A stretch of 39,142 bases of DNA, taken from Nitrososphaerota archaeon (lineage in GTDB: Archaea; Thermoproteota; Nitrososphaeria; Conexivisphaerales; DTJL01). The translations under genes were made by a program, and so were the position numbers. Position 1 is the stretch's first letter; every line of letters starts with the position of its first letter. This document shows, one piece after another, positions 14,099-35,574 of the stretch. The stretch is taken from positions 1-39,142 of the forward strand of contig JAJPJS010000021.1 of NCBI GenBank assembly GCA_021324115.1, in the 5' to 3' direction. A model generated the notes under the pieces. It did not search any database. It saw nothing but the letters and a program-made list of their open reading frames with translations, and was not told where the DNA came from.

Positions 14099-16267
14099 TT
14101 GGAGAAGGAAATCAGGATATTCAAACCCAATGTGACTGAAGAAAAGCCGATCGGGGTTGGAATTGAAGAATTGGCTTATGCGCCAAGGCTGCTCGCAGCA
14201 TCGAAGGACGGCTTCATCCCGGTCGACCTGGAAAAAGATGTAATAATTCAGAGGGTATCTCATGACCTGTATGCGTCTCCGAAGTCTGGCTTCAGGGAGC
14301 TCTATGAAAACGAAGCAAGGGCGTGCAGGGCAGCGAAGGAGAACGGATCCAACCCAAGGATTGAGATAACCGTTTCTCCCTCGAACAGAAAGCTCGTGAT
14401 ACATGGCATCGACAGCATGGGCATTTCCCAACAGGTCTTCATCGAGCTGTACAGATACCTGGGGAGGTCTGACAACTGGAGCGGCAGGGAGGTGGGACAG
14501 TACGGGCTGGGGAAGGCCAGCTACGTGACCCTCTCCGATACAATGCTCTTGGAGACGTATTCAAGAGAGGACGGCACCAGATACGCCGTGGTCGGCAAAA
14601 GCGCCAAAGGCTACAGCCTCGCACCAGAGCCGAAGGACCTCGACGAATATGGAACTAGACTTACGATGATACTCAGGGACGACGTGGACATCGGGTCGCT
14701 CCATGAATACATCGTCGAATGCACAAGATTCTCGGGCATCGAGACGTACCTCAATCTCGAAGACGACCTGACCGATGAGTTCGGTGGCTCCAAAATAAGA
14801 GACGCAGGGCGTTACAGACTCGGTCCAGAGAGCTTCGATGAATACCTGGAGAAGCAGGTAAAGAAGGAGTCGTACTACGTCGAAAAGCTCGTGAGGTACA
14901 TCCCCATAAAGGTCGAAGACGAGGACTTTTCGCTCTACGGCGCCTACATCATCAAGCATGGCTACTCTGGGGACTCGGCGGTGGAGAGCGGTCGCCTGGC
15001 CTCCGACGTGTTTCTGCTGGGCGTGCCAGTCGAAGCGCGAAGCATAAGACTGCCCTTCTCGGGCTGGGTTCTCAACCTGCTTGACGAAAGGAAATATCAA
15101 CCCACTGCCGACCGCGAAAGGCTGCAGGAAGAATCTGAATCTGCGCTGATGGAGAAGGTCGAACCCAAGCTGCGCGAAGCGCTCTCGTTCCTAAACATCG
15201 AATCCATCAACGAGTATCTGAACTCTGACTACAAGGAGCTGTACCACGGCTTCGACGAGCTGGGCCTCGAATACTACCTGTCAGACAGGACGGTGGACAT
15301 CTGCAGGTTCCTGACCACTCCTGTCAAGGAGCTTGGCAATAGGAGACACGGTAAGTTGTACGAGCTGCTCAGAGAATCCAGCCCTGACAACCTCTTCTAC
15401 CTTTCAAGAAGCGATTACAGGAGGGCTTCGGTCATACAGGCCAATGTTCCTGGCGCAGCCGTCTTCGTCCTGAAGCACCCCGGCCTGGAGTCGATTGAGA
15501 GGCTGAGGAGATACGGCGTCAACGCTGGTGAGGAGTTCATTCGAGAGAAGAAGCTCAGGGGGGACAGAAATCCAGGAGGGGACATAGCCGTTCACAGCGC
15601 GGGCACGGGATACTACAGCTGGGAGAGGTTCAAGACTGTCAGAAAGCACGTGGATAGAGTGACGGTCGGACAGCTGGATGAGCAAACGGTGAGGGTGCCG
15701 AAAGGAAGGTCTAGGCCTTACCTTGCGCTTCTTTCCGCCCTGCAGACGAGCTACAAAATAGCCCTGGACAACAAGGAACTCTCAGGAGGCATCCTGCTCT
15801 CCGACTTCGTCAACGCAGTCGGGTCAAAGGAAGTGAAAACTAACCGCGGCATGATGTCACCCAGAGAGATGCTGAAATCCAATGACAAAGTGAGGCTCCA
15901 CCTGTACAGCGACCCGGCACTCTCAGAGTTCTATGCGGGCAAAGAAGGCATCGAAGTCTTCGGCGAAAGCGACCTGCTCTTCGAACTTGCCGTATTTCTC
16001 ACTTACAACGGAGCGAAGTACGAGATCGACGAATCAGAGAAGATAGAATTCGAAGCCGAGTTCCCTGACGTATCCTACAGGCCGTTCCTGAACGACCCCG
16101 ACTATGCAAAGATTGGGGACTCTGAAATTCTTCACAGCGTCATGCACGTCTTGAAGGCCGTAAAGGACGAAGGCCTCAGAGCGATGTTCCTCAACGCGGT
16201 CCGGTACAGCAGGGACGCAGAGGAAGTAAGGTCGATGAGGGAGACCGCGCTGAGGCTGGACAATTAG
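14099..16267 (+). CDS. GHKL-fold (Hsp90/MutL-type) ATPase
   Basis: Large ATPase of 722 residues with a Bergerat (GHKL) nucleotide fold: N-box ELYENEARA (E67, N71), G1 box IDSMGI (D105, G108), G2 lid GQYGLGKAS (133-141) and a likely G3 element YGTRLTMI. The N-box places E67 where GHKL enzymes have the general base. Residues 270-722 match no family I know and contain mixed alpha/beta and helical segments. No kinase, MutL nuclease or topoisomerase domain is evident. GHKL proteins of this size occur in phages and plasmids (e.g. RIIA-like) and in Morc-type defence systems. It is the largest gene of the cargo operon, so probably its motor or switch. TTG start with a strong Shine-Dalgarno. Confidence 0.8.
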   Translation: MEKEIRIFKPNVTEEKPIGVGIEELAYAPRLLAASKDGFIPVDLEKDVIIQRVSHDLYASPKSGFRELYENEARACRAAKENGSNPRIEITVSPSNRKLVIHGIDSMGISQQVFIELYRYLGRSDNWSGREVGQYGLGKASYVTLSDTMLLETYSREDGTRYAVVGKSAKGYSLAPEPKDLDEYGTRLTMILRDDVDIGSLHEYIVECTRFSGIETYLNLEDDLTDEFGGSKIRDAGRYRLGPESFDEYLEKQVKKESYYVEKLVRYIPIKVEDEDFSLYGAYIIKHGYSGDSAVESGRLASDVFLLGVPVEARSIRLPFSGWVLNLLDERKYQPTADRERLQEESESALMEKVEPKLREALSFLNIESINEYLNSDYKELYHGFDELGLEYYLSDRTVDICRFLTTPVKELGNRRHGKLYELLRESSPDNLFYLSRSDYRRASVIQANVPGAAVFVLKHPGLESIERLRRYGVNAGEEFIREKKLRGDRNPGGDIAVHSAGTGYYSWERFKTVRKHVDRVTVGQLDEQTVRVPKGRSRPYLALLSALQTSYKIALDNKELSGGILLSDFVNAVGSKEVKTNRGMMSPREMLKSNDKVRLHLYSDPALSEFYAGKEGIEVFGESDLLFELAVFLTYNGAKYEIDESEKIEFEAEFPDVSYRPFLNDPDYAKIGDSEILHSVMHVLKAVKDEGLRAMFLNAVRYSRDAEEVRSMRETALRLDN

Positions 16268-18339: not shown

Positions 18340-18418
18340 TCCTGAAACAGTCCACTGTTGATGAAAGTTACTCGCAATAGCACTATTCACTCAGGGACCG
18401 TGATGAGTCAAATTGGGT

Positions 18419-18886
18419 ATGGATTGCATCGCACTCAACCCGACTTCTGACGAATACGGCGGCTTCCAACTGAACTGCTCCGGCTGGACCTACATGGGGC
18501 ATCTGATATCCCAATGTGTGTCGAATGCCTCACAGGTCACGAAGGACTGGGCAGGAACGAACGATGGCCAGGAAGTGTCAGAAAAGGATGCAAGAGCGAT
18601 GGGCGAAGCGCTCCTGAAAGCCTTGAAAGAAGGACGAATCAAGGAGATGAGGGTTAAGGACAAACGGTACACAGGTGGTTACTTCAGCGTAGCATTCGTG
18701 GAAGGTTCGGCCATACCGTTTCTCCAATACGATTTCGAAGAGACGGAAGGAAGCCCATACGCCGCTAAGGTGACTCCGATCTTTCCAGTTCCAAATGACC
18801 TCAGACCTCTCCAAGAGGGGACGAAGAAGTGGATCGAAAGTTTCGCCATGTTTCTGCTGAACTGCGGTGGCTTCGCACAGTGGTGA
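18419..18886 (+). CDS. phage/plasmid-type hypothetical protein (GMD... family)
   Basis: This roughly 155-residue protein opens with MDCIALNPTSDEYGGFQLN, resembling a family in phages and plasmids that begins 'MGMDVYGxNP...GxYFxNNxWxWxPL'. The middle is helical (KDARAMGEALLKALKEG) and the end hydrophobic. TTG 18413 is in frame two codons earlier; ATG 18419 is preferred, but neither has a clear Shine-Dalgarno. Role unknown. Together with the genes at 16301, 16582 and 17845 it gives the block a plasmid-like character. Confidence 0.65.
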   Translation: MDCIALNPTSDEYGGFQLNCSGWTYMGHLISQCVSNASQVTKDWAGTNDGQEVSEKDARAMGEALLKALKEGRIKEMRVKDKRYTGGYFSVAFVEGSAIPFLQYDFEETEGSPYAAKVTPIFPVPNDLRPLQEGTKKWIESFAMFLLNCGGFAQW

Positions 18887-18916: not shown

Positions 18917-19141
18917 ATGACTGACATCAGAGACGTGGTACAACGGATGAATGAGTTGCTGGAGAAGGGCGACATACGAGGTTTCAAGGAACTGGTGAAG
19001 GAAAATCGCAAAGAAGCAGTGGTGGCAGCGAACTATGTAAATGCAAAATATAGATATCTGGCGCAATGGATTGCAAGCGCGACGCTGGACAAAACGCAGG
19101 AACAAGAACTAAGAAAACAAGACGAATTCCTAGAAGGATAA
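18917..19141 (+). CDS. hypothetical small helical protein
   Basis: Unrecognised 74-residue charged protein predicted to be almost all helix (VVQRMNELLEKGDIRGFKEL, then VKENRKEAVVAANYVNAKY). It lies 30 bases after the previous gene on the same strand. No strong Shine-Dalgarno is seen. It is the last ORF before the hairpin-rich segment at 19153. A coiled-coil or small regulatory role is possible, but there is no direct evidence. Confidence 0.55.
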   Translation: MTDIRDVVQRMNELLEKGDIRGFKELVKENRKEAVVAANYVNAKYRYLAQWIASATLDKTQEQELRKQDEFLEG

Positions 19142-19152
19142 GACGAGACGAT

Positions 19153-19426
19153 GGGGATGCTTATCCTGACTTTTGACGAAAAGTCGGACTATTCCCTGCA
19201 GAAATGCAGGATGATCCTTGCTTCTCAAGCAAGGATTTCCCCCTGATGATCCCGACCTATCCCAGAAGGTAGGCGACGGGTGCTCAACCACTATAATGGT
19301 TGGGTTGGTCCACTAGGGACCGAAATGCGCTCCGTTGAAGCGCGCAGGCTAACTCGAACGGGGTGTCTGCGCGTGGAGGGGGCATTGGGGCGGTTGAGCA
19401 GACTGGGTTTTCCTCTGCTGGGCACC
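19153..19426 (+). ncRNA. candidate structured RNA / hairpin array
   Basis: A 270-base gene-free stretch packed with helices. It holds a 7-bp hairpin (19168-19174/19179-19185), a 6-bp hairpin closed by a GAAA tetraloop (19195-19200/19205-19210) and a 10-bp hairpin (19214-19223/19227-19236), all inside GGGGA/TCCCC (19153-19157/19238-19242). It also holds a two-part hairpin (19251-19254/19277-19280 and 19256-19261/19268-19273) and a 5-bp hairpin (19307-19311/19317-19321). A 9-bp long-range helix pairs 19281-19289 with 19392-19400; it excludes a local hairpin (19283-19290/19297-19304). CGCGCAG/CTGCGCG (19341-19347/19367-19373) also pairs. No known RNA family is recognised. It could be a transcript, a leader of the 19444 gene, or a hairpin-rich replication/transfer origin. 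Strand is assumed from neighbours. Confidence 0.5.
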
Positions 19427-19443
19427 ACTAAATCATTAAACTT

Positions 19444-20634
19444 ATGAATTTCGGTGTTGACCCGAACATTGTGACCTTTTCTCCTGTAGAATTCTGGAAT
19501 GAACTTGGAGTTGACTATGATGATCTGTCTAAGGATGCGAGCGCCACAGGAGGTCGAGCTGTAACAAGGCTATTTCATAGGTTGGTCGAGAAAGGAGATC
19601 AATGGAGAATCGTATTTCGGAACGTCTTAGATTTGCCTTATGACGACATAAAGACTTGCCTCCAAATAATCTATGCTCAGAAAAAGGGAGATTTCATTGA
19701 TGTCCTTGCAACCCTTGCTCTCGCTAACAAAGTAGGAGAGAGGACCCGTCTGATTGGGGTATTCGAACGCGTCTGTACTGGCCTTCAGGAGTTATTCAGG
19801 TCATTTCCAAGCGTAGACTTGGCTGTAATGGTATTCTGTATCTACCATGTAAATCCAGAGGAGGTAAGAAATTGGTATTATGAATGCCTAATCGAGTCAA
19901 AGGAGGGAAAGAGATTCCGCTCAAGAAATCGCATAGAGCAATATGGAGCAACGACACATGAGGACATCAAAAGGCTCATGGATGAATGGCAACTTGGCAA
20001 GGGTCGGAAGGGCACTCTTCACCTTTGGTGGAGTAAGTACGAAGCAGACATACTCAAAATGGCGTTTAGGAAACAACGAAAGGGAACAACTCCATTGCAA
20101 CTTCTTCACAAGAATGAATTCATTCGAACAGCAAGCCAATCCTATCTCGTGTTTTATGATAACTTGAACGAATTGGAAATAATCTCGAATCGAGTAACCA
20201 AGGAGCAACGAGAATTGGCCGAGTTCATAGCCAAGAAACTCTCGGGGGTGACTGTAGCCTACGAGGAGATTTTCCGTGAGCAGTCTATTCCCGAATTCGC
20301 GAACTTTCTAGACCAATTGGCTAGCGGGCAAATGAATGATATCATTCTTACGGAGGTGCACAGAAGGAATGCCCCATTGAGAGGATCGCCGCTGCTTAGC
20401 CTGCTTTCCGAAAGTGGCGAATCGATAGCCGACGCCTTGAATGATCTCGAATCAAAACGAGTTCCGATCTTGGATTCCCCCCAGGACATCGTGAAAATAG
20501 GAGTCATAATATCAGGCGTCAAGTTCTTTATCAAAGTGTGGACGAACAGGAAAGGAAATGTGGAGTTCGGGATAGATCGAAGATATCACTCGCCAGGCCA
20601 GATGTCGCTTCTTGGGCGCCTCTTCGGAGCGTAA
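19444..20634 (+). CDS. hypothetical protein paired with a nuclease gene
   Basis: Unrecognised 396-residue, largely helical protein. There is a basic, Trp-rich stretch around residues 170-215 (HLWWSKYEADILKMAFRKQR) and a C-terminal beta segment (VIISGVKFFIKVWTNRKGNV). No signal peptide or known catalytic motif is visible. Its TAA overlaps the ATG of the nuclease gene by one base (TAATG at 20632-20636), so the two probably act together. There is no Shine-Dalgarno before ATG 19444, and the AT-rich stretch 19429-19440 is too close for a leaderless promoter; the hairpin-rich segment may be its leader. A substrate-recognition or inhibitor partner of the nuclease is plausible. Confidence 0.7.
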   Translation: MNFGVDPNIVTFSPVEFWNELGVDYDDLSKDASATGGRAVTRLFHRLVEKGDQWRIVFRNVLDLPYDDIKTCLQIIYAQKKGDFIDVLATLALANKVGERTRLIGVFERVCTGLQELFRSFPSVDLAVMVFCIYHVNPEEVRNWYYECLIESKEGKRFRSRNRIEQYGATTHEDIKRLMDEWQLGKGRKGTLHLWWSKYEADILKMAFRKQRKGTTPLQLLHKNEFIRTASQSYLVFYDNLNELEIISNRVTKEQRELAEFIAKKLSGVTVAYEEIFREQSIPEFANFLDQLASGQMNDIILTEVHRRNAPLRGSPLLSLLSESGESIADALNDLESKRVPILDSPQDIVKIGVIISGVKFFIKVWTNRKGNVEFGIDRRYHSPGQMSLLGRLFGA

Positions 20635-21749
20635 TGAATTTGGAACCAATTCGATGGGTCAAACTTAGAAAGGGCTACTCGATCTCGGAGGATAACAAGA
20701 GGGCGGTCGAGCAGTTGCTAGCTCTCCAGAAAAGAGGAGTGATTCGTGTACAGAACCTCTCCTATGTACGATGCAAGCATTGCGGGTCTGCAATTTTGGT
20801 GCCCAGTACTGCAATCGAAGAGGATAGATTGCCCTGCGGAACATGTGGAAAAAAACGAGTCATTACTTCAAAGTCGATCATCAAGGAAATGCAGGTAAGC
20901 GACATTGACTATGACCGGTTATCTTCAATCCTTGGCTCATACCTGTCAGACATGCTGGGTTCTCAGTATGTCGAATTCGATGGAATACGAAGAGTATGGT
21001 TTTGCACCATTGAGGGTAAGAGAATACCTGTCTTTATGGATAATTGGTCGAACTTCAATTTTTTCCTGCCCCCCGAAGGTGCGGGGGCATGGTTGTGTAT
21101 CACTACAGATTATGAGACGAATAGAAATGCGTTAAATTCTCTTGACCGCAAGAAAATCATCGATATTGTCGAAGTTTTGGAGACAGAAGGGAAAGTGCTG
21201 AAGATTATCCATGAGGTAGGATTGGACTACGACCAGGTTCCGTCATTTGAACAAGAATCTCGCTTTGATGCTCTTCTGAAGGAGCTGTCTTATGACGAGT
21301 TTGAAACTTTGGTTACCCGCTTTCTTGACAGACTAAAGGGGAACAAGAGTGGGCTTGGAAAATATTACCGCTTCTTGTCACAATATGAAGATACGTTTGT
21401 GAATACGAAGTATGTAAAGGGAGGAGGTCCTGGCTTGCCCGATTTTCTTAGTTTCAATCTAAAGAACTATATCGAGAGTGGTCTCGCGCCAGATAGAATA
21501 GGTGAATGCAAGATGTATTTAAAAAGCAGAATCAAGATCGAAGACTACAACGAGGCAGTGAGCATGGCCCAACATCATGGCGGTGAATTCTTGATGGTTG
21601 CTTCCACGAACGATGTCGCTCCTAGTGTTTGGCATAATATACATGAAGCCCGGAAAGGTGTACGATACCCTCAAGTGCTGTTCGATAAGGACACACTCCT
21701 GTTGTTGTCGAATGTCTCAGGAGAAGACCTGACCCTTCAAGCCGATTGA
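20634..21749 (+). CDS. zinc-ribbon plus PD-(D/E)xK restriction-type endonuclease
   Basis: Predicted DNA nuclease of 371 residues. An N-terminal zinc ribbon uses C47/C50 (CKHC) and C68/C71 (CGTC). Residues 100-200 are a beta-rich middle domain. From about 215 comes the nuclease: a helix LSYDEFETLVTRFLDRL, then GPGLPDF (D270) and IGECK (E291, K293), giving the D...ExK core, followed by a helix DYNEAVSMAQ and the strand FLMVAST. This order matches Mrr-like/restriction nuclease folds. ATG 20634 is chosen because it overlaps the upstream stop, although the frame is open to 20538. With the 19444 gene it makes a likely two-gene defence unit. The zinc ribbon suggests DNA binding. Confidence 0.75.
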   Translation: MNLEPIRWVKLRKGYSISEDNKRAVEQLLALQKRGVIRVQNLSYVRCKHCGSAILVPSTAIEEDRLPCGTCGKKRVITSKSIIKEMQVSDIDYDRLSSILGSYLSDMLGSQYVEFDGIRRVWFCTIEGKRIPVFMDNWSNFNFFLPPEGAGAWLCITTDYETNRNALNSLDRKKIIDIVEVLETEGKVLKIIHEVGLDYDQVPSFEQESRFDALLKELSYDEFETLVTRFLDRLKGNKSGLGKYYRFLSQYEDTFVNTKYVKGGGPGLPDFLSFNLKNYIESGLAPDRIGECKMYLKSRIKIEDYNEAVSMAQHHGGEFLMVASTNDVAPSVWHNIHEARKGVRYPQVLFDKDTLLLLSNVSGEDLTLQAD

Positions 21750-22546: not shown

Positions 22547-22633
22547 GATGCAGGCCGTTGCGGGTTTTCCTCCTACTTTGCCTAAAAAAATTTTTGAATA
22601 ATTAGGATGTAAGACAATGTCTGACTTGGTTCA

Positions 22634-22771
22634 ATGGTTGATACTGATTTAACGGCACTCCGACCGGTATCGTTGCAGGACTTCACAGCTTATGCGCTCT
22701 TCTCGGGGACCTTCTTTCCTTTCTTGGCCTTCTTCTCCGGCATCGAAGAGTGGTCCAACGATTCAGACTAA
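22634..22771 (+). CDS. possible 45-residue membrane peptide
   Basis: ATG 22634 opens a 45-codon frame with one hydrophobic helix in its second half (AYALFSGTFFPFLAFFSG) and an acidic end. Upstream lies an AT-rich stretch (22586-22605) that could hold a TATA box, and ATG 22618 opens an 11-codon frame that ends within it. It resembles the end of a larger membrane protein or a small toxin-like peptide. There is no Shine-Dalgarno and no recognisable family, so it may be chance. The rest of 22547-22843 shows nothing else. Confidence 0.3.
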   Translation: MVDTDLTALRPVSLQDFTAYALFSGTFFPFLAFFSGIEEWSNDSD

Positions 22772-24228: not shown

Positions 24229-25260
24229 ATGCACACTTCTAATCTGCTATTTTGGATTGTGGAAAACGATAATCCGATCGAGCGAAATCGCTCTGCAGAC
24301 TATATCATGGACTCGGCGATAAACTATTACAATTATGATAATCCTCATTTACCATACACAGCTGGACAGTTATTCCTGGATAACGGAGCCTACACAGCCG
24401 CCAGCCAAAATCTCAATTTGGAAGTCGACAGAATCGTGGCAGTACAAGAAGCTATTTGGCCAAATAAGACGATTCCACTCGACTATCCTTTGCGTCCCGG
24501 GATGGGCCTATCCGCCATAAAGAAGAATTGGGGTAACACAAAGAGAAATATAATGTACTGGCAGGAAAACACACGTCTTAGCAAAAGGCTCGTTGCACCT
24601 TTGCATGCATGGGATAAAGAGTCTTTAAAACGGAACATAGGATGGTTACAGAAGTATGCTGACACAGACTTGTTAGCAGTAGGGAGCTTGGTGAATTACA
24701 ACGAATTTGGAGGATATTTTGGGGATCGCCAACCCCGAAGAGAAACTATTGATTTGCTAACACTTGCTGTCCAAACCATTAATAAAGAAAGCGACTTCAA
24801 GGTACACCTTATGGGCTTTGGTGCATCGCCTTTGACTCTTCACTTGGCCTACTATATGGGCGCTTACAGCACGGACTCCTCAGGATACAGAAGGAAGGCT
24901 GCTTATGGTAAAATAGTGCTTCCTGGGAGTGGCGAGAGATACGCAGGAAACTCGTCTGCTACCTTCGGATTAACCATGTACACACACAGAGACTTGGATT
25001 TGCTAAGCGAATGCCGATGTCAAATCTGCAGAGCCAACCCTGATGTCCTCTGGTCGAGTTGGCGCGCGCGTGCAGCGCATAATGAATTTGTTATGAAGCT
25101 CGAGGCTGCTAGAGCTGACGCGTTACTTGCTCAAGGAAGAGACGCATATGCTCTTTACTTGGAAGACGTTTTCTCGCGTTCTTCCTTACGATATTTGTGG
25201 AAACACACCAAGGAAAGGGTGAGGTACCATCGGATTTCAGAGTACTTGGTTGGAAGATGA
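24229..25260 (+). CDS. dpdA: DpdA-like DNA 7-deazaguanine transglycosylase
   Basis: Predicted base-exchange enzyme of the tRNA-guanine transglycosylase (TGT) fold. In the Dpd system such an enzyme replaces guanine in DNA with preQ0. The 343 residues carry FLDNGAY (D51, in place of the TGT 'DSGGF'), IPLDYP (D85), LLAVGSL (149-154, TGT 'GLAVGE'), HLMGFG (193-198) and TDSSGYRR (D216, likely nucleophile). The zinc site is CRCQIC with H284 (C262, C264, C267). It lacks the PUA-type domains of archaeal TGT and is shorter than bacterial TGT, which favours a DNA-acting DpdA over a tRNA enzyme. It begins a string of overlapping genes; its stop lies inside the next gene. No preQ0 synthesis genes adjoin. 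A tRNA-type substrate is not excluded. Confidence 0.72.
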   Translation: MHTSNLLFWIVENDNPIERNRSADYIMDSAINYYNYDNPHLPYTAGQLFLDNGAYTAASQNLNLEVDRIVAVQEAIWPNKTIPLDYPLRPGMGLSAIKKNWGNTKRNIMYWQENTRLSKRLVAPLHAWDKESLKRNIGWLQKYADTDLLAVGSLVNYNEFGGYFGDRQPRRETIDLLTLAVQTINKESDFKVHLMGFGASPLTLHLAYYMGAYSTDSSGYRRKAAYGKIVLPGSGERYAGNSSATFGLTMYTHRDLDLLSECRCQICRANPDVLWSSWRARAAHNEFVMKLEAARADALLAQGRDAYALYLEDVFSRSSLRYLWKHTKERVRYHRISEYLVGR

Positions 25261-26521
25261 TTCTTTGGTGGAAACTGAAATCCCGAACGTGAAATCTTTT
25301 CAAAGCATATTAAATGCCCTTGCCAAGCTAACAGAGAAGGCTGTATTTCACTTTACCGCAAGAGGGCTGAATATCAGTGGTGTTGATGAAAATGATATGA
25401 GCTATTTGGAAATCACCTTAAGTCCATCATACTTCATAAGTTATTCTCACAAGACTGATCTGATGTTTACCATCGAGACAAAGAAATTGAACAGAGTGGC
25501 CCAACTTTTATCTTCAAAAGAAAAGCTATTTCTTTCTGCAGGAAACCAAGGACTCACGATTCGAACTTTAGGGCATTGGAACAGTAATTTTAGATTCGTT
25601 GCATCCGACAATAGTTTTGAAAAGCCAAGTGAAATCAAGGAATTGGATTACACGGTGCACTTCTCGCTTCCGGCTAGCCAGCTTTTTGCCGAAATCAAGA
25701 AAGCTTCTGCCATATCTGAAGAAATCACTCTAGGAGCTATTGGCGATGACTTTGTGATTAGCAGTTCAAGCGGGACCTACGAGTTTGAAACCAAACGTCG
25801 TGGTGTTAAGTACAATAGCGAAAACGAGATAAAACCATGCAAAGTCACAATCAAATCGGAACCCATTATTTGTATGAACAATCTTGTAGGAGAGGACGAT
25901 TTAGTTGAGCTTTCATTTGCCGAGGGAATGCCACTTAGAATTATATTGAACCGAGCGAAATTAATACGAATAGTCATACACTTGGTGAGTAGTCGTGCGA
26001 TGGAATCACTTGAAAGGAAATTCGAGGCGGATTCTCTCCCATCGTTCCCAACCACAAGGTTCTTCCCGTTTCTGAGCTATGTTTCAAGCATTCCGAAAGG
26101 TATCTCTCAAAATGAACTCACGTCAACTCCATTCGAAACGGAAGGACTGAATTACTCGAAGATAGCTATCTCTCTCGGTTTCGCAGAACGAATCTCGGGC
26201 ACGCTAAAACTTACGAGGTTCGGAAATAACTTTCTGGACTTATACCATCAAAACGAATCACATGCGAAGCTCATGCTTCATGAAATAGCAGAAAAGCGTT
26301 GTGTGGCTTACCGGCTTGTTACTAGAGAGTTAATGAAGCGGCCTATGACGTTAGAGGCGCTCGTCGATCAACTTGATGCTCAAAAACTCAATAATATGTT
26401 GGAGGACATTGACAGGACAGACTTGGCTATCATGCTCGGTTTAGCTACGTGGTGCGGCGCAATCAACCGAAAACTGTCATTATACTACTTCGGTACACCG
26501 TTCAGAATTGTGGGTGATTAA
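25250..26521 (+). CDS. PCNA-like sliding clamp with an extra C-terminal region
   Basis: Residues 10-245 follow the PCNA plan of two similar halves. The first runs FQSILNALAKLTEKAVFHFT, ARGLNISGVDENDMSYLEI and a strand YFISYSHKTDLMFTIETKKL. The second runs VHFSLPASQLFAEIKKASAI, FVISSSSGTYEFE and, near the end, LVELSFAEGMPLRIIL, the position of the conserved PCNA 'LSFGNDMPLKL'. The remaining 180 residues, absent from PCNA, contain winged-helix-like segments (YSKIAISLGFAERISGTLKL). PCNA trimers tether enzymes to DNA, so this may recruit or activate the operon's other proteins. TTG 25250 overlaps dpdA by 11 bases; TTG or GTG a few codons later are alternatives. The assignment is by pattern, not alignment. 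Confidence 0.65.
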   Translation: MEDDSLVETEIPNVKSFQSILNALAKLTEKAVFHFTARGLNISGVDENDMSYLEITLSPSYFISYSHKTDLMFTIETKKLNRVAQLLSSKEKLFLSAGNQGLTIRTLGHWNSNFRFVASDNSFEKPSEIKELDYTVHFSLPASQLFAEIKKASAISEEITLGAIGDDFVISSSSGTYEFETKRRGVKYNSENEIKPCKVTIKSEPIICMNNLVGEDDLVELSFAEGMPLRIILNRAKLIRIVIHLVSSRAMESLERKFEADSLPSFPTTRFFPFLSYVSSIPKGISQNELTSTPFETEGLNYSKIAISLGFAERISGTLKLTRFGNNFLDLYHQNESHAKLMLHEIAEKRCVAYRLVTRELMKRPMTLEALVDQLDAQKLNNMLEDIDRTDLAIMLGLATWCGAINRKLSLYYFGTPFRIVGD

Positions 26522-28901
26522 TGTGACTCTTGAAGGGCAAAATACTTCGGTGGCACACTTCTACAATCTTGCCGAGATTCCCTTTGAGCCAACTGGTGCT
26601 GCGACGGAAAAGTATCCATATGTTGCGCCGAAGAAGTTCAGTGTTATCGAAGAAAAAATGGATGAAGTTGTCAATGAGAAGAAACTGTACGTTGTTCTTC
26701 TCAGAGCTCCCCAAGGTGGGGGCAAAACCGCAACAGCATCTGAACTGAAACGAAGGGTTGAAGCGAAGAAGTACGTCGGCGGAAAAGCCGTGGCGATAGT
26801 TAATAGGCTACTTGACCTTGATTTCGCACACTATGCCTCAGACTTCATTGAGCAAACGATACCACTGCTTCCCGAGTTCAAATGGGGGAAGTACGAAGGG
26901 AAGACCTCTCCTGGCGAACTCAAGAACGCCACGGTTTCTGCGCTCAAAAGGTTGGCCATAGATTACAAGTTGGTTGTTTGGGTAATAGATGAATTCGATA
27001 TCTTGGTAGACTATCCCAAGGAGAAGCAAAGTCAATTTCTTCAGATACTTCGAGAAATCATTGATGAACTCTCTAATGAAAGGCTTCCAATCCTATTCAT
27101 CATGTCTCACACGGAGAAATCCTCAAAGGAGTTCGAGAAACACCTCCGGGATATCCATGGTCCGCTTCAAAGCCGCGTTGTAACTGCCCTGGACATTGGC
27201 TATTCTTACAGCGAAGTCAAGGCCATAGTCGCAGCGAGGCTGCGCTCTGTTCGCAAAGATGAACAACCCTATAATTCTATCGAGCCATTCACAGAGGACT
27301 CATTGAAGGAACTGTACAACCTTGTACTCGCGACTGGTGGGACCGGAGAGCTCAACGACTTTAGATTGTTCGAGCGTTGCTGTTACTTTTCCATTCTCGA
27401 AGGAGTCCACAAAGGACAGAAACAGATTCTAAAAGATACGGTGCAAGAAGAATTCCAAAACCAATTGAAGCTGTGGGCAAAACCTGAACCTGACGAAAAA
27501 CTATCTCTCCCACTGCGTTCGGACAGAAACAATATCCTTGCAGGGACTCTGATGATGCGTAATGAGGCAATACTAAAGGGGTTGCTGAAGGGACTAAAGC
27601 TCACGGAAGACCAAATAAGCGAGCTTCTCGATGTAAAGACACGCGATCTAGGAGATTTGGCAGGGCATGTGCATGTCGGCGCCTTGCAATGCAGCGCCCA
27701 CCATAAACCGACCGATAAGTGGGTTTCAATTGCATGGGTTCTCGCTGCGAAAGAAGAAGGACTGATACTTCCTGATGATATTATGGAGATTAACGCGACG
27801 GCCGGAACGATTCGGGGTGAGGCCACGAGCTACGTGAACTTGTTGATAGTGAGTTATGTTTCGGAGTTCGACTTGGATACTTCTCAGATGACGAATGCGG
27901 ACCAAGTAATTCGAATATCATCGGACACCGCACGGGATTTGACTGGACTTGGTTTGGAGTCTGCCACCAAGGAGGACACAGATCTACTTCGGAAGAGTTT
28001 TGATTCCGAAATTGCCGTAGTGGTAAGACACATCTTGGAAATTAGTACTAGGGACATTACAAAGGATGTTACCGAAAGCGTTCAGCATCTTGCCATAACA
28101 CTGAATTTGATCCACTCTGCTGGTTCAAAGTTAACGAAAGAATCACTCAAAGACGAAAACAAGAAGCTATTTCGTTCTGGCAGAGTCCAAGATAGAAATA
28201 TCACCGACTTGATTTCACTTGGGTTTGCGAGGGAGGAAGGGACGCAGATAGTTCCTACTGTACCTAAAGCGCTATACTATCTTGATCAGCTACTGCGCAA
28301 AGAAGGCCCCTTAAAGCCCGAAGCAGTCCAAAAACAGTTCGGGCAAAACTCCGAGGCAGTTATCGGCATATCTAAGAAGCTAGGTTTGGTGAATATCGAT
28401 GATAATGGGGTAATCAGTCGCGCACAAATAGACAAAGACCTTGATGAACTTATCAGTTCAACAAAGGCTATCCTTTCTTCCGATGCCAAAAAGACCTTGG
28501 ACGGGGAAGAGGCAGACTTGATTGTCAAAGCCGTCGATAAAACGAGTTCAGACTCGATAACTGGAAACATTGTGAGATCAGCTGCTCACTTGTTGCTCCC
28601 TCAATTTAGACAAAACTTGGGGAAACTCTCAAGCCCAGCTACCGCAGAAAAAAAAACAGTTGAGCCTTCGATTCCTCAATCTAGCACGAAACCAACTCCT
28701 CCAACCACTGTCGTTCGAGACACTCTGAAGTACGACCCAACAATGTTCGAGAAAGCAGTAATCACCATTATCGAGGGCAGGGGTCAACCCGTAACGCTTG
28801 ATGAACTGAAGCAGGAGCTCGCTGGGTTAGGATTTTCGTACGATATCAATCCAAAGATACTCGGCATGATCATACAGAACAAATTAAAACTGGCGGCTTG
28901 A
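26508..28901 (+). CDS. AAA-type ATPase of the Dpd-like operon
   Basis: P-loop ATPase of 797 residues. Walker A is APQGGGKTA (about 67-75) and Walker B VVWVIDEFD (156-164), followed by a sensor-like strand LFIMSHTEKS, the layout of ORC/Cdc6- or STAND-like AAA proteins. An N-terminal FYNLAEIPFEPTG motif, found in many ORC-like ATPases, precedes it. From about 330 on it is helical with winged-helix-like units, a charged linker near 720-740 and a final small domain. It corresponds in position to the DpdH-type ATPase of bacterial Dpd operons. The start is TTG 26508, GTG 26514 or GTG 26523; it overlaps the clamp gene's end. The tail overlaps the next gene (TTGA). Confidence 0.75.
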   Translation: MWVINVTLEGQNTSVAHFYNLAEIPFEPTGAATEKYPYVAPKKFSVIEEKMDEVVNEKKLYVVLLRAPQGGGKTATASELKRRVEAKKYVGGKAVAIVNRLLDLDFAHYASDFIEQTIPLLPEFKWGKYEGKTSPGELKNATVSALKRLAIDYKLVVWVIDEFDILVDYPKEKQSQFLQILREIIDELSNERLPILFIMSHTEKSSKEFEKHLRDIHGPLQSRVVTALDIGYSYSEVKAIVAARLRSVRKDEQPYNSIEPFTEDSLKELYNLVLATGGTGELNDFRLFERCCYFSILEGVHKGQKQILKDTVQEEFQNQLKLWAKPEPDEKLSLPLRSDRNNILAGTLMMRNEAILKGLLKGLKLTEDQISELLDVKTRDLGDLAGHVHVGALQCSAHHKPTDKWVSIAWVLAAKEEGLILPDDIMEINATAGTIRGEATSYVNLLIVSYVSEFDLDTSQMTNADQVIRISSDTARDLTGLGLESATKEDTDLLRKSFDSEIAVVVRHILEISTRDITKDVTESVQHLAITLNLIHSAGSKLTKESLKDENKKLFRSGRVQDRNITDLISLGFAREEGTQIVPTVPKALYYLDQLLRKEGPLKPEAVQKQFGQNSEAVIGISKKLGLVNIDDNGVISRAQIDKDLDELISSTKAILSSDAKKTLDGEEADLIVKAVDKTSSDSITGNIVRSAAHLLLPQFRQNLGKLSSPATAEKKTVEPSIPQSSTKPTPPTTVVRDTLKYDPTMFEKAVITIIEGRGQPVTLDELKQELAGLGFSYDINPKILGMIIQNKLKLAA

Positions 28902-29920
28902 TAAAATCTTTGCAGCGCCTAAGAGTTGACAAATATCGGAAATTTCCACGGGCTTATGATTTAGGGAATGTAGGGCGATACCTCGAAGTCTTGCACGATT
29001 GCCCGATACCCCTAAGGGAAATCGAAGGGAGAAAATTGCAATTATCGCTGGCGCATGGAAAGATTGCCCGCGAAACGGGGAGTCAAATCCTTCAGTGGAA
29101 GAGAAAAAAAGGCTTAGAGAATGCTGACGAAAGCGAGTATCGGTACCTCCTACGGGACTTGGCTATCGTAGATGAGCGTAATCTAAGCGACGAATTTGAG
29201 AAGGATTTGCCAATCGGTGGAGACGGTCCACCCATTGGAGCCTTGGTTTCCCACTCGTCCAAAGGCCGACTGTACTATCTTAACGATTTGGGCGAGAAGT
29301 TATATCAATATTACAGTAGCGACAGGCCAGCATATCAATCAATGCTTTTCTGGTTAATCTTACGTAACCAATCGTATTTACCGTTGATTCAGCAAGTGAT
29401 CCTTGATAGGGAAAGCTATCATGGGAGAGACCTAAGAGAAGTAATGCAGACAAGTGATTCAACCAGTGTTAATTGTGCTTTACAATGGTTGAGATACTTC
29501 GGCATTGCCAAGTGCAGTCGGCCAAGTCAACGAGATGGGGATTCAAAAGCCCACCGGTCTAGCTGCAAACTAGGGGTTGGGACTCTCGGTTCCTACTTGT
29601 TGGCCGCTACCATTCTTGAGATCAATCAGTTCTATCGAAAGGGAGTGGATTATTACATTAAGGAGATCGAAGAACAATTGAATGAAACTTTCTCTCTTAA
29701 TCCATCATCAATCGATTTCGTCGCAGCAGTAGAGACGATTTTTCGGTATTGTCAACCTGTCGTCGAAGGATACGCTTCAAGCAGAGGAGACATCACCTTT
29801 CCTAATTTCCCCAAGATTTCGATTGTTAGGTTCGAAGACAAAATCCCCCTTTCAATCTTAATGAGAGTATCAAGGATAAATCTTCTCCGGCTAACGAAAT
29901 ATGCGAGGACAAACACATGA
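28898..29920 (+). CDS. winged-helix-like protein of the Dpd-like operon
   Basis: Unrecognised 340-residue protein. It shows repeated helix-turn-helix-like segments, such as SYHGRDLREVMQTSDSTSV followed by a helix ALQWLRYFGIA, and a long helical C-terminal half. No nuclease, ATPase or membrane motif is seen. It starts at TTG 28898 overlapping the ATPase stop and ends in an ATGA overlap with the helicase gene, so it is part of the coupled operon. By position and size it could be the counterpart of DpdG or DpdI, whose functions are themselves unclear. It may act as a DNA-sensing adaptor. Confidence 0.65.
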   Translation: MIKSLQRLRVDKYRKFPRAYDLGNVGRYLEVLHDCPIPLREIEGRKLQLSLAHGKIARETGSQILQWKRKKGLENADESEYRYLLRDLAIVDERNLSDEFEKDLPIGGDGPPIGALVSHSSKGRLYYLNDLGEKLYQYYSSDRPAYQSMLFWLILRNQSYLPLIQQVILDRESYHGRDLREVMQTSDSTSVNCALQWLRYFGIAKCSRPSQRDGDSKAHRSSCKLGVGTLGSYLLAATILEINQFYRKGVDYYIKEIEEQLNETFSLNPSSIDFVAAVETIFRYCQPVVEGYASSRGDITFPNFPKISIVRFEDKIPLSILMRVSRINLLRLTKYARTNT

Positions 29921-32433
29921 GTGCATCTAGCGAGCAAGAAAACGAGGTATTGCGCAGTATCGAAGAGATTGAAGCCCAGAATACACGATTGGGTCGTTAC
30001 GACTTCATTTCGGAAAGTTCTTTATCGCAAGCAACTGGGATAGAACCCGGCAGGCTCTCAGAGATACTTACTTCGCTGCAGACCAGAAGAATGGTGATTT
30101 GGGACAAATCTACAGGAGTTCGAAGCAGAACTGGGCATATATTATTTGCCCTTCTCAATTCAGAAGCAAGAAGTAGAACTCAGCCGGCGTTACGAAATGT
30201 CTCCGACCTGAAATACATCAGGTATGTCAAACAGATTCCAAAATACGCTATTGAGCTTAGTGACTCTGTAACGAACATCAAGCTTGACGAAATTTTACAC
30301 TTCAGCCGGCTAGAGGCTCAATCAGGTGCTGTGGTCACAACCGCGCTGTCCGCAATTGCCAGTAGGTACCCGAGAATCAGCCAGTTCCAGCTGAATTCGA
30401 CCGTCCATATACTGCAAATGCTCATCCACTCCCAAGATGATTCTGGTCTGGTGCTTGTGGCGGATACCGGAGGAGGTAAGTCTCTCGCATATCAGCTCCC
30501 TCTTCTTCTTTGGATTTTTACCAAGAAAGTAGATGCATATATACACAAGAAGCGACATGTCAATTGCTCAGCCCTACTGGTATTCCCAAGAAATGTTCTA
30601 GCTCAGGACCAAGCAGAGGATCTCGCCTCTCTTGGTCAAATCATCGACGAACGTTTTGACAGACTGCCCCTCCCTTCGGAGTTCAAAGACTTCCTTAAGC
30701 TACGCGTGAAGAGAGACTACGGCAGCGGAACGAAAGATCTGCAGACAAGACTTGCAGAGGTGTACGAAAGCGATCCTGACATCATCATTACGAATACGGA
30801 AGCTATGAAGAAGCGTTTGATGAATCCCATTTCTCACAAGGTGTATCGTGAAGGTGTTGACTTGGTCCTTTACGACGAGGTTCACCTTTACAGTGGCTTG
30901 CACGGAGCGTTCGTCGCGGGGTTGAACGCCAGGTTAAGAACCGTGTTGCCCCGTTCACCGGCGTTCGTTGGCATGTCGGCCACCATCGCAAGGCCGGAGA
31001 AACATTGCCAGAAGTTATTCTCAATTCAGATAAGACCGACGAAGATTAGCGATCGGGAAGACATCCTCGAGAAGAAAGTCATCGAACATCATGTTGCATT
31101 AAGACCGAGACCCGGAAGACCACCACTCGGTGTGGCGATTGATGCGACTTCTTGTTTGCTTCACAACCGTCGTGATGGCATTTCGGGTTCAAGGAGTGCA
31201 TTAGTAGAAGAAAGGCCCAAAAGTATTAGCTTTTCAGATTCACTTGACACAACTTCTAGGTGGACTTACGATCAAAACGACGCTGAATTCTTTGAGCCAA
31301 GAACGGTCCCGTTGACAGATTTCAGGAGGGGCTACCCTTCATTTTTCAGACCTGCCGCCAAGCAGGGCGTTAATCCCTACTTTGGGGAGCATTGCGTCTC
31401 CTGCCATGAAGGTCGGGAAGTAATCTGCTCTAATTGTGAGCACTATCTTAGGGGAGGGTGTTGGTGGTTTTCCCAAGACAGTGGCGACCCAGGATCGTGG
31501 ATTCGCGTTTCCGGTGATCTCTACGTGCCAGATGATTGTGTCAGGTCGAAACGGCTGACCGCCCAAGAGGTCCAATCTGAACGTGGAGGCAACGTCTACG
31601 ACCTCTTCACGATAAGCGGAGTACATGCCGGCTCGAACTTCGTACGGGTGGATTTACCAGGCGACAACATCATTGCTACTGGAGTATTGGAAGTGGGAGT
31701 GGATTTTAGGGGCATAAAAGAGATTATCATGTCTGGTGAAATACAGTCTCCAGCGAACTACAAGCAGAAGTCAGGAAGAGGTGCCAGGGAAGGAAACATG
31801 GAGGATGGACTGTTCGTGCTGACAATAGTGCCACAATTACCTCTGGCGAATTTTTACTATCGGCACTTTTACCGCTTAGTAAACCCAACTCTAACGCCGG
31901 TTCCACTAGAGCCATCGAACCCTGATGCGGTAGCATCTCATGCCTTCGCAAGTGTGCTGGACTACTTGGCCATGCAAGGTATCGACATCTTCAATATCAT
32001 TGGGATCAAGGTTGACGAACACGCTTTAGAAGCACAGTTCGACCGGGCGCTCGAGTTCATTCGCAGCGAAAGAGGAAACATAGAGGCCCACGTGATGAGG
32101 TTTCTTAGGATTGTCGATTCGAGCGATAAATCGATTGCCTCGGAAGCCGTCAATCACGTAGAGAGGCTCCTCTTTGATCTATCTGAGAAGGTGACTTTGG
32201 AAGGAGAAACGCGGAAATTCGTAACTTGGGTATTTGTTGGCGCACGTGACGGGCACATTATGAACGCGCTCGAGGAGAAAGTGAGAGGCGAATATGACAG
32301 TCTGCAGGGATCCGTCGAGACCACCCTCAGAACGGAACGACAATTCAGGGAAAGTCTCACCAAGCTACAAGACTATCTGAATGACCTGGGTGGTGATTAT
32401 TCTGCTATGTCTGCCAAACTCCGAAGAGAGTGA
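29917..32433 (+). CDS. DEAD/DEAH-type superfamily 2 helicase (DrmA/DpdJ-like)
   Basis: Helicase of 838 residues with an N-terminal helix-turn-helix-like segment (about 25-65). Motif I is ADTGGGKS (182-189), motif Ia LLVFPRNVLAQDQA, motif II YDEVH (319-323) and motif III GMSATI (352-357). A zinc cluster of four cysteines (CVSC 493/496, CSNC 504/507) precedes motif V TGVLEVGVDF (about 588-597) and motif VI QKSGRGAREG. This architecture, split from the DUF1998 protein that follows, matches DrmA-DrmB of DISARM and the helicase (DpdJ) of Dpd. It should translocate on DNA for restriction. The ATG overlaps the previous stop; the end overlaps the next gene (GTGA). Confidence 0.85.
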   Translation: MSASSEQENEVLRSIEEIEAQNTRLGRYDFISESSLSQATGIEPGRLSEILTSLQTRRMVIWDKSTGVRSRTGHILFALLNSEARSRTQPALRNVSDLKYIRYVKQIPKYAIELSDSVTNIKLDEILHFSRLEAQSGAVVTTALSAIASRYPRISQFQLNSTVHILQMLIHSQDDSGLVLVADTGGGKSLAYQLPLLLWIFTKKVDAYIHKKRHVNCSALLVFPRNVLAQDQAEDLASLGQIIDERFDRLPLPSEFKDFLKLRVKRDYGSGTKDLQTRLAEVYESDPDIIITNTEAMKKRLMNPISHKVYREGVDLVLYDEVHLYSGLHGAFVAGLNARLRTVLPRSPAFVGMSATIARPEKHCQKLFSIQIRPTKISDREDILEKKVIEHHVALRPRPGRPPLGVAIDATSCLLHNRRDGISGSRSALVEERPKSISFSDSLDTTSRWTYDQNDAEFFEPRTVPLTDFRRGYPSFFRPAAKQGVNPYFGEHCVSCHEGREVICSNCEHYLRGGCWWFSQDSGDPGSWIRVSGDLYVPDDCVRSKRLTAQEVQSERGGNVYDLFTISGVHAGSNFVRVDLPGDNIIATGVLEVGVDFRGIKEIIMSGEIQSPANYKQKSGRGAREGNMEDGLFVLTIVPQLPLANFYYRHFYRLVNPTLTPVPLEPSNPDAVASHAFASVLDYLAMQGIDIFNIIGIKVDEHALEAQFDRALEFIRSERGNIEAHVMRFLRIVDSSDKSIASEAVNHVERLLFDLSEKVTLEGETRKFVTWVFVGARDGHIMNALEEKVRGEYDSLQGSVETTLRTERQFRESLTKLQDYLNDLGGDYSAMSAKLRRE

Positions 32434-34619
32434 ATCAACCCATGAATAGCGACCAATTGTCGGAAATGCAGCAGTTTCTAAATGAGCTAAAAACCAAGAT
32501 CAGGGTAGATTCGAATATCTCAATAGAGAAAGTTGGGGACTTGTTCGAGAGTATTCGTAACTTGGAGTCCGCTATCAGCGAGTACCGGACCGCAATTTCG
32601 CAAGATGTCACACCAGATCTTGCCACTGTTGAGAGGCTTCGTCGAAAGTTGACTTTGATAGGTGCTATTCAAAGCATCCAGAACCCATCATATTTTGATG
32701 AGTTTGCATCTACCTTGGCTGAGCATCCGTACTCACTCCCAAAGGCTCTCTTCGATCCTCAAGGTAGGGAAATGGTAACGATAGATTTCCCCGGCAGTCG
32801 ATCGGATCAACAATTCCACAAGGTGAGAATGGACCTTGCACTGGGAATGCTTTACCCGGGATCGTTCACTTACAGATATGGACAGCCGATAAAGGTGGAA
32901 ACAGGTCGCTTCTCACAAAGATTCATAGCAAACCTTAGAATGCACACACTTAGCCCTGATCCAATATTCAAGATGAAGAGAGATGGCAGAATAATTGACG
33001 TTTACAAGCCCATCAGACTCAGAACAATGCAGGTCGTCGATAGAAACCCATTCATATGCAGGAACTGTCTCTCGATTTCTGGCCTGGATGAAGGCTGCTC
33101 GCATGCGCCTCGGATAAAACAACCTCGAAAACTTCCGTCTTCATCAGCGGTTACAGCAAATCAAGAGCTAGAAAGGCAAACAGAAGGCTCTGTGGCGCTC
33201 AGGGCTCCACTGAGCACCGTTATCACTTCAGTCAGTTTCTTGGAGAGATTCAAGGTCGGTCAAGCAGTGCTTGGTTTCGAGAGATCTGCCTTCAGACATG
33301 TCACCATCGTGGACTACGATCCTCCAATAGGCATGATCTTGGAAACGAAAGGAGTGGCCTTCGCCATCAACATACCTCCCGGTGTACTGGACCACCTCAG
33401 CAATATACCAATCCTGGTTCGGGACGTTCTGGCACAGTTACTAGCACACAAGTTGATAGATTCATTCTCTAGAAATGGAATGCCAAGCTACTATCTCGAA
33501 CCAATCCTTTCTGGGGTGATTTCTTCCTTGGGAATGGGGCAAGGCTCAAAGGACGTGACATCGGTTCTAAACACATTCTCATCAAGCAGCTGGGTCGAGA
33601 ATGCGATTCAGGCCACCTTGGCCGAGGGTGCCAATTACTACGAACGCTTTGATGTTCAAGAGCGTAGGTTACGAAGCCTATTCGAGTTACTCTCGCAGCA
33701 ATCGATTGAATTACAGACTATAAAAAACGAGATCAAGAACAGGCTCCTCCATTCGCTGGCGCACAACTTGTTAATCGCAGGATGCGTCACTGCGGGTTGC
33801 CTCCCATCCGATCTCGAATATCTGATATCTGACAACGAAATAGTGCTGTTCGATTCGGTGGATGGAGGAAACGGTTCCTCAGCGATGATTTTTGATTTCA
33901 TCAGCTCAAGAGACTCATTCAGTCTGACTGATGTAGAAGAGCCAACAAAAGAGCGAACTTTCAGGCCAAAATACTTCGATGAGGCATTCGCTGAGTTGAT
34001 GTTACCATGCCAACAAGGGGTATCCGAAAGGATTTTCCACCGCCAACTGCCCGTTCCTACACACCAAGAAATCAGCAGACGAATAACAGCGCTTGAAAGA
34101 CAACGGCAAGCCTATTCAGATGCCTACAAACAAATTTCGCAGATTGGGGTTGAAAACTGCTTCATCGCTTCGCTAGGATTCCATCTTCCGTTGGAGCTAG
34201 GAATGGATGTTCAAGCGGCGGAGAGATTCAAGGAGTCTGCAAGTGTTTGCCTCCATGGTTGCCCAGACTGCTTGGTTCTGGGAAATCGGTGCGAAGAAGG
34301 CGGATTCATGGAGAAGTTCAGCTTGAGTAAGGCTGCATTAGACGAGTATTTCCGATACATGACGAAATCTTATGTGCTTGATTACCGAGCGGAAGATTCG
34401 GTCATTGATTCTACTCTGAACACTCAAGGAGTCGCGATTCTCAGCATGCAGCTTACTCGCCCGGCAGAAGAAGGGTCTACCGATAAATTAGATGCGCGCA
34501 TTGCAGAATTTCGGGGGAGAAGATTGGGAGAACGATTCATCAAATTCGCGGGCTTCTGGGTCGATTCCCCGATCACGAGTAACGATGTCCGATACAGTGC
34601 CCTGTTGGTGCTTGTCTAA
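32430..34619 (+). CDS. DUF1998 (DrmB-like) protein
   Basis: Partner of the helicase, 729 residues. The N-terminal third is helical. A central zinc-type cluster CRNC...C sits near residue 208. The DUF1998 domain contains LLHSLAHNLLIAGCVTAGC (about 447-465), then IVLFDSVDGGNGSS and a C-terminal cluster CLHGCPDC (about 607-614) plus a later C, probably binding metal. DrmB in DISARM forms a complex with the DrmA helicase and aids DNA recognition. In bacterial Dpd the equivalent region is in or beside DpdJ. The start is GTG 32430 (GTGA overlap) or ATG 32442; the stop overlaps the next ATG by one base. All expected DUF1998 motifs seem intact. Confidence 0.82.
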   Translation: MNQPMNSDQLSEMQQFLNELKTKIRVDSNISIEKVGDLFESIRNLESAISEYRTAISQDVTPDLATVERLRRKLTLIGAIQSIQNPSYFDEFASTLAEHPYSLPKALFDPQGREMVTIDFPGSRSDQQFHKVRMDLALGMLYPGSFTYRYGQPIKVETGRFSQRFIANLRMHTLSPDPIFKMKRDGRIIDVYKPIRLRTMQVVDRNPFICRNCLSISGLDEGCSHAPRIKQPRKLPSSSAVTANQELERQTEGSVALRAPLSTVITSVSFLERFKVGQAVLGFERSAFRHVTIVDYDPPIGMILETKGVAFAINIPPGVLDHLSNIPILVRDVLAQLLAHKLIDSFSRNGMPSYYLEPILSGVISSLGMGQGSKDVTSVLNTFSSSSWVENAIQATLAEGANYYERFDVQERRLRSLFELLSQQSIELQTIKNEIKNRLLHSLAHNLLIAGCVTAGCLPSDLEYLISDNEIVLFDSVDGGNGSSAMIFDFISSRDSFSLTDVEEPTKERTFRPKYFDEAFAELMLPCQQGVSERIFHRQLPVPTHQEISRRITALERQRQAYSDAYKQISQIGVENCFIASLGFHLPLELGMDVQAAERFKESASVCLHGCPDCLVLGNRCEEGGFMEKFSLSKAALDEYFRYMTKSYVLDYRAEDSVIDSTLNTQGVAILSMQLTRPAEEGSTDKLDARIAEFRGRRLGERFIKFAGFWVDSPITSNDVRYSALLVLV

Positions 34620-35185
34620 TGGTTCATGTTACAGAAGAGAATGTTGAGATAATAGATGTTGACCTACTGATTCAAGAGTGTCTAAGAGCCAGCGAAGGAA
34701 AAGAGGCCTTCGCATATATTATTTCTCCATTCATTTCAGATTTTATACTTTCGCCTTCATGGCTTTCGTTTGTTAGTAACATAATCGAGGTTGCTGACAT
34801 CGATAGCTATGTGGATCTTGTCGGCTTGCTGCGTCATCATGGGGTCGATGTTAGAGTCGTTACTAGGTCTCCAGCGGACCTTCGCACAACAACCATTTCA
34901 CGTAAATTTATAGATAAGCAAGAAAGAACACTTGCACAGCTGGCTAAGATGGGTTGCGAAATTAGGACGAATGCATCCTTACACGCAAAGGCGACATTGA
35001 CCAGCGGGGGCGTTCTCGCAGGGTCCTTTAACCTTACGCAGTCTGGCAGGTCTTTGAACCTTGAAGCAGGCTTCTACTTTCCAAACACTTTTGGGATAGA
35101 GAAGAGGGAGTATGAGGATAAGCTAGAATGGGCGCAACGATTATTCTCCGAGTCTGTTCCGGTCAACAACTCTCGTCTAAGATGA
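34619..35185 (+). CDS. phospholipase D-like (DrmC/DpdK-type) protein
   Basis: A 188-residue protein of the phospholipase D superfamily. The single HKD-type motif is LHAKATLTSGGVLAGSFNLT (H and K, then the downstream Asn of the 'GSxN' element). Upstream is a typical strand VDVRVVTRSP. With one motif per chain it would act as a dimer and, as in DpdK and DrmC, is a candidate nuclease or phosphodiesterase. It is the last gene of the operon: ATG 34619 overlaps the stop of the DUF1998 gene, and a 389-base gap follows. It has no signal peptide or membrane segment. Confidence 0.8.
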   Translation: MVHVTEENVEIIDVDLLIQECLRASEGKEAFAYIISPFISDFILSPSWLSFVSNIIEVADIDSYVDLVGLLRHHGVDVRVVTRSPADLRTTTISRKFIDKQERTLAQLAKMGCEIRTNASLHAKATLTSGGVLAGSFNLTQSGRSLNLEAGFYFPNTFGIEKREYEDKLEWAQRLFSESVPVNNSRLR

Positions 35186-35574
35186 TCTCCGAGTTGTTCA
35201 TAATATGACGAACTTTGATACCGGCTGGGCCAGCATTAAGTTCTATGCATAGGGTATTTCCGATGACATAGTAACTTGACAAAGCGTTCAACTGGACTAC
35301 TGCCCCAATTATTATAGTCGAGTCCCCCCCCGTCTCGAACCCTTGAGTTGACTATCAACCGGGTGGGGAATCTCTTTCTCCAAAAGAGTGACGAATTTAT
35401 ACTCAGATGGTAAGACCATGGAGGTATGATGAAACCCGGATGGTCTCGGTTCGGAATGACGGAATATATTGGAAGCCGGACCCACCCCTACCGAGGGGTG
35501 GGTCCCACCGGGCCCGCAACCATTTGGGTGCATAAACAGGGTGCCGTTATGGGAGCAACGTTCAGCGTATAACT
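35186..35574. other. intergenic region between Dpd-like operon and integrase
   Basis: No credible gene. It holds a run of eight C (35324-35331) inside a stretch that resembles a tRNA 3' end (35317-35338), a TATA-like TTTATAC near 35397, and the strong hairpin at 35474-35512. A minus-strand frame of 90 codons crosses the hairpin but has no protein-like character. Confidence 0.5.
35474..35512. repeat. GC-rich perfect inverted repeat
   Basis: A perfect 12-bp stem (35478-35489 with 35494-35505, loop ACCG) with partly complementary flanks (GCCGG/CCGGGC). No T-run follows on the plus strand. It could end the upstream operon, mark a recombination site near the integrase, or be a small-RNA hairpin. 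Confidence 0.6.

Follow-up and report, generated by a model that had tools for sequence, protein, structure and literature searches.

Hammerhead ribozymes have been described between prophage genes and upstream of ardA, and in the archaeal haloviruses HF1 and HF2 a hammerhead lies 13 nt 5' of a helicase gene, where a transcript end was mapped at most 3 nucleotides from the cleavage site (PMC3088659). RNA processing between operons has been proposed for both the prophage and the HF1/HF2 hammerheads (PMC3088659). In a survey from 2023, no known hammerhead had more than 1-2 nt between A9 and stem II (PMC10085705). Here we describe an archaeal RNA that, judged from its sequence, is likely to be a structurally novel hammerhead ribozyme variant, which would cut the transcript between genes of a mobile or defence region. 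The RNA itself is real and evolutionarily conserved, as supported by covariation.

The RNA locus and its copies

The window, that is the whole stretch of DNA that was analysed, is one entire contig of 39,142 bases from a genome of 2.14 Mb in 27 contigs. A PCNA N-terminal domain among its genes and its kinship to the genomes compared below mark it as archaeal, probably of the class Nitrososphaeria. The region 19153-19426 contains no ORF of at least 70 aa and lies between ORFs that end at 19141 and start at 19444, in agreement with the preliminary description, which had reported a non-coding region. The features of the locus are as follows:

18413-18886, plus strand: upstream ORF of 157 aa (ORF157), no family; its 3' part is also found upstream of the C14 copy
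18917-19141, plus strand: ORF of 74 aa (ORF74) directly 5' of the RNA, without family; also upstream of the C14 copy, and its end in C9
19153-19238, plus strand: three 5' hairpins including a GAAA-capped one, partly common to the three copies of this genome only
19239-19392, plus strand: conserved RNA core (model region), putatively of hammerhead type with a five-way junction
19239-19242, plus strand: stem I, 5' strand (2.4-2.1)
19243-19249, plus strand: CUGAUGA core strand (C3-A9)
19250-19306, plus strand: 57-nt insertion between A9 and 10.1, with helices P2 and P3
19251-19254 with 19277-19280, plus strand: P2, extended by 19256-19259 with 19270-19273
19282-19290 with 19297-19305, plus strand: P3
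19307-19321, plus strand: stem II (P4), 19307-19311 with 19317-19321, including G10.1-C11.1
19322-19325, plus strand: GAAA core strand (G12, A13, A14, A15.1)
19325-19385, plus strand: stem III (P5), base 19325-19328 with 19382-19385, extended by P6/P7
19386-19387, plus strand: predicted cleavage site after H17 (U19386), placed by the hammerhead register
19387-19390, plus strand: stem I, 3' strand (1.1-1.4)
19397-19419, plus strand: 3' hairpin AGCAGA/UCUGCU, in W and C9
19444-20634, plus strand: downstream ORF of 396 aa (ORF396), gene 1 of a two-gene module; its first 68 codons are also found 3' of the C9 copy
20538-21749, plus strand: second module gene, 403 aa, with a zinc ribbon and a PD...ExK-like motif (PDFL...GECK; motif assigned by eye)

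The dense helices that had first drawn attention to the region are real. On the plus strand, 19153-19426 folds at -126.3 kcal/mol, compared with -97.4 +/- 4.9 kcal/mol in 200 dinucleotide-shuffled sequences, none of which folded as well (z -5.86), and the minus strand reaches z -4.13. A strand bias of the fold is seen in the copy called G001 below (z -4.8 versus +0.4) and in the window copy W (z -4.3 versus -2.0). Searching the window against Rfam at gathering thresholds gave no match to this RNA, and permissive thresholds yielded nothing credible, with no hammerhead at E up to 10 in 19100-19460, L025 and L052.

Five copies of the RNA were found in three archaeal genomes. Three are in the genome of the window (W, C9 and C14); a covariance model of these identified the fourth in a sister genus of the same family (G001; 63 bits, E 5e-15), and the resulting four-copy model identified the fifth in another family (G026; 62 bits, E 5e-13). 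Rescans of 400 genomes of the class and 39 relatives of G026 with a five-copy model, as well as a scan of the phylum with the four-copy model, retrieved no further copies; once a scan covers more than 40 genomes, stricter filters apply and weak members may be missed. Model matches in G143 (22 bits) and G024 (18 bits) were rejected as chance. Exact-pattern scans of genome and viral collections returned no members, their matches being chance according to the covariance model, and neither BLASTN against plasmids and phages nor searches of viral contigs guided by the ORF396 and ORF157 proteins gave a hit.

The conserved unit comprises 19239-19392. The GAAA-capped hairpin of the preliminary description (CCUGCA-GAAA-UGCAGG, about 19195-19211) is present in the window; like the other 5' hairpins in 19153-19238, it is not conserved outside this genome. 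Two copies are truncated. In C9 the RNA is preceded by the end of ORF74 and followed by 68 codons of ORF396; in C14 part of ORF157 and ORF74 precede an RNA that extends to W position 19391, and the contig begins in what looks, by eye, like the 3' portion of a 23S rRNA gene. Between W and C14, identity is 83% in the RNA core compared with 64-66% at third codon positions of the neighbouring genes, and in sliding windows directly 5' of the RNA it drops to 47-63%. Because the core identity of W and C9 (80%) is below that of the adjacent ORF396 fragment (87%), C9 provides no evidence for constraint.

Eight helices are common to the four closest copies, in which 92% of the cells are paired (87% in shuffles), 10 pairs are changed on both sides (4.7 in shuffles; 1 of 500 as high) and the covariation score is 0.281 (0.184 in shuffles; 0 of 500 as high), far above slid registers; these figures come from a model alignment that leans towards structure, and a five-row count including the weak chance match L026 is similar. 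The same helices are reproduced by the unconstrained minimum-energy folds of G001 and G026. Changes on both sides occur in stems II and III, the stem I pairs 1.1-2.1, 1.3-2.3 and 1.4-2.4 vary as pairs, and the conserved helices include G-U pairs. Stem III has two conserved internal loops, GUUGAA/UGGA and CUAAC/GGUG, common to copies from different families. The suggestion that the region encodes a new structured RNA is thus borne out by the absence of an Rfam match, by homologues in two other archaeal genera and by the compensatory changes in them, which the preliminary description had named as a check.

Hammerhead-like core and inserted helices

The junction reads, in order, stem I, CUGANGA, stem II, GAAA, stem III, UH and stem I. 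Fixed in all five copies are C3, U4, G5, A6, G8, G12, A13, A14, A15.1, U16.1 and the G10.1-C11.1 pair, the first core strand being CUGAUGA, CUGAUGC, CUGAUGG, CUGAAGA or CUGACGA. Only N7 (U, U, U, A, C) and H17 (U, U, U, C, A; never G, and directly 5' of the stem I strand) vary freely, which are the positions allowed to vary in hammerheads. W, G001 and G026 keep the A at A9, which is replaced in the truncated copies C9 and C14. In stem I, 1.1-2.1 is G-C in four of the five copies and A-U in G026, and 1.4-2.4 is C-G or U-A; in stem III, 15.2-16.2 is U-A or C-G. A k-turn or C/D box reading of UGAUGA was considered and dropped.

The unconstrained minimum-energy folds of G001 and G026 leave the hammerhead strands open except for a weak U-G pair at G12. 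H17 is unpaired in both, and in G026 so are all seven CUGACGA nucleotides, next to a stem I of six pairs. Forcing the full hammerhead costs 0.4 kcal/mol in G001 and G026, 4.0 in W, 12.9 in C9 and 12.5 in C14; given these values, the copies with an intact core can form the hammerhead cheaply and the truncated ones cannot. The window copy prefers, by 4 kcal/mol, a competing fold in which CUGAUG is paired.

That W has such a competing fold, and that the RNA lies upstream of different genes at different loci, would also suit an RNA switch working through a 9-bp long-range helix, which the preliminary description had envisaged, here as an attenuator of the downstream module. The helix exists in the window: 19281-19289 (TGCTCAACC) is perfectly complementary to 19392-19400 (GGTTGAGCA), at -17.1 kcal/mol, which 0 of 300 shuffled tails equalled. 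In C9, however, it is weaker (-12.6 kcal/mol, matched by 5.7% of shuffled tails), and in C14, G001 and G026 it is not above chance. A helix restricted to W, apart from a weaker form in C9, gives no support to a conserved switch, and we regard this reading as very unlikely.

To our full hammerhead descriptor, about 1-2 matches in 10,000 are expected by chance per 274 nt, and 1 in 20,000 shuffles of W matched, figures that are somewhat optimistic as the descriptor was chosen after seeing the match. Searching both strands of 2.57 Mb of sequence with it returned family members only. Direct joining of stem II to A9 was tested and found in no copy, each having 52-77 nt inserted at this point, and we therefore call the RNA a variant rather than an ordinary member; there was also no match to a curated hammerhead covariance model. 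The insertion forms two helices, P2 (UCCC/GGG) and P3 (GCUC...GGGU), resulting in a five-way junction. A9/G10.1 is a metal-binding site in the hammerhead, and an insertion there could abolish cleavage.

Besides the missing Rfam match, this insertion and the competing fold of W, two further points speak against a hammerhead: there is extensive conservation outside the core that a plain hammerhead does not need, and only five copies are available, three of them close. A conserved structured RNA without catalysis, such as a leader, a protein-binding RNA or a small RNA of a mobile element, whose junction merely resembles the hammerhead core, would account for this large periphery (P2, P3 and the internal loops of stem III), for an insertion without hammerhead precedent and for the missing Rfam match. 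It would not account for a junction whose conservation is hammerhead-like at every position, both free ones included, nor for the chance of about 1e-4 of a full descriptor match, and we consider it improbable. The peripheral conservation suggests tertiary contacts or a second function. Tentatively, P2/P3 and the stem III loops might constitute a sensing or regulatory domain next to the catalytic core that controls cleavage, which would make the RNA a natural allosteric hammerhead between backbone and defence genes, a possible if rather unlikely extension of the hammerhead reading.

Gene neighbourhood and proposed processing

With a methylase/restriction gene, HerA/TraG-like and OLD-like ATPases, a Dpd-like cluster and a weak tyrosine-recombinase match, the window is a defence-rich and probably mobile region. 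Its positions 24229-35185 hold an operon resembling the Dpd 7-deazaguanine DNA-modification/restriction system, with TGT-like, PCNA-like, AAA, DpdJ-like helicase, MZB and DpdK-like PLD proteins. The RNA of W, G001 and G026 is flanked on both sides by genes of the same strand, and the next ORF follows after some tens of nucleotides. The flanking genes differ from locus to locus: ORF74 upstream and the nuclease module downstream in W, a zinc-finger-like ORF downstream in G001, and in G026 a downstream ORF that by eye resembles an FkbM-type methyltransferase and shares an operon with a ParB-like gene. Homology between ORF74 and the peptide encoded upstream of the G001 copy is not significant (12% of shuffles as good). 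CRISPR-, omega- and retron-RNA readings were dropped, as the homologues were not seen to have an RT, TnpB/IscB or Cas gene next to them.

The two-gene module (window 19444-21749; L011 9127-11395) has relatives in three other genomes of the class (G038, G062 and G086). Its first gene has no PADLOC match, and together the 396-aa and 403-aa proteins are a candidate uncharacterised defence module. In G038, the gap upstream of the module is AT-rich and without a hammerhead-like RNA, so the RNA is not part of the module as such.

Several further elements were observed. A second repeated, hairpin-rich element occupies 35292-35518 of the window and recurs at L010 3809-4032 (minus strand), L162 7394-7489 and L009 6363-6395 (minus strand). 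It is 94% identical between window and C14, has shorter matches in C7 and C9, folds with z -2.5 and follows the three RNA copies at distances of about 16, 14 and 3.4 kb downstream, sharing their orientation; from this arrangement, a variable cargo region may be enclosed between the RNA and the repeat. Short Argonaute-like (Piwi) proteins, mutually related at E 4e-12, are encoded at L010 8537-9790 (minus strand) and L031 7502-9022 (plus strand), about 8 kb (C14) and 0.7 kb (G001) from RNA copies, which may reflect chance co-location in defence islands or a link. A patch of about 80% DNA identity connects window 22558-22744 with L010 around 14598-14783 (window-C14), and L031 13587-17618 (plus strand) is an elongation factor 2 gene of 1343 aa with, by eye, a long intein-like insertion.

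A region with recombinase-like, HerA/TraG-like and integrated-element features, in which copies end at different points around the RNA, is also where a replication or transfer origin or a recombination site acting as hairpin DNA might be expected, and an origin was the other function put forward initially. Against this stand the bias of the fold to one strand, the G-U pairs in conserved helices, the lack of an initiator gene beside the homologues and the presence of the hammerhead core. With a strand-specific signal and conservation of ribozyme nucleotides, the origin reading is not supported and seems extremely improbable.

For the hammerhead variant, we infer transcription, cleavage, the cleavage site and a processing role. 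The plus strand would encode a self-cleaving hammerhead-type RNA of type I topology with an open stem I, enlarged by P2 and P3 in the joint from A9 to stem II and by a long, conserved extension of stem III. Co-transcribed with its neighbours, the RNA would fold and cleave its own U19386-G19387 bond. The upstream mRNA (ORF157-ORF74) would then end in a 2',3'-cyclic phosphate preceded by a stable structure, and the downstream nuclease-module mRNA would begin with a short 5'-OH leader, about 58 nt before its annotated start. By analogy with the prophage and halovirus hammerheads, the placement of the RNA fits processing between operons.

Comparison with known hammerheads

If the RNA cleaves, two helices can be accommodated at the joint of A9 and stem II in the hammerhead fold, and Rfam-type searches have consequently been blind to hammerheads built in this way. 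This would contradict the block model underlying current searches, and the hammerheads would gain an archaeal branch whose self-cleaving RNA keeps genes apart where a defence module borders on its surroundings. With its conserved extra domain, the RNA is a candidate for a naturally regulated ribozyme.

Type I hammerheads (Perreault et al. 2011, PMC3088659) share with the new RNA the CUGANGA and GAAA strands, NUH, the G10.1-C11.1 and A15.1-U16.1 pairs, the type I order of stems I, II and III with an open stem I, and a location between mobile-element genes, some of them in archaea and their viruses. In contrast to their three-way junction, the new RNA has a five-way junction, created by 52-77 nt and two helices between A9 and 10.1. 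It also differs from them in the two conserved internal loops of stem III and strong conservation outside the core, and it is missed by the Rfam models. The HHmeta and HHphage hammerheads from salterns and haloviruses HF1/HF2 (PMC3088659) resemble it in their archaeal setting, in a core insertion and in the position directly 5' of a gene, but their insertion consists of a few nucleotides near C3 and not of two helices after A9. The type SGC non-circularly permuted hammerheads (PMC10085705) likewise embed a hammerhead core in a larger novel motif with conserved periphery; compared with these, the new RNA keeps the ordinary order of the core blocks, and the change is an insertion.
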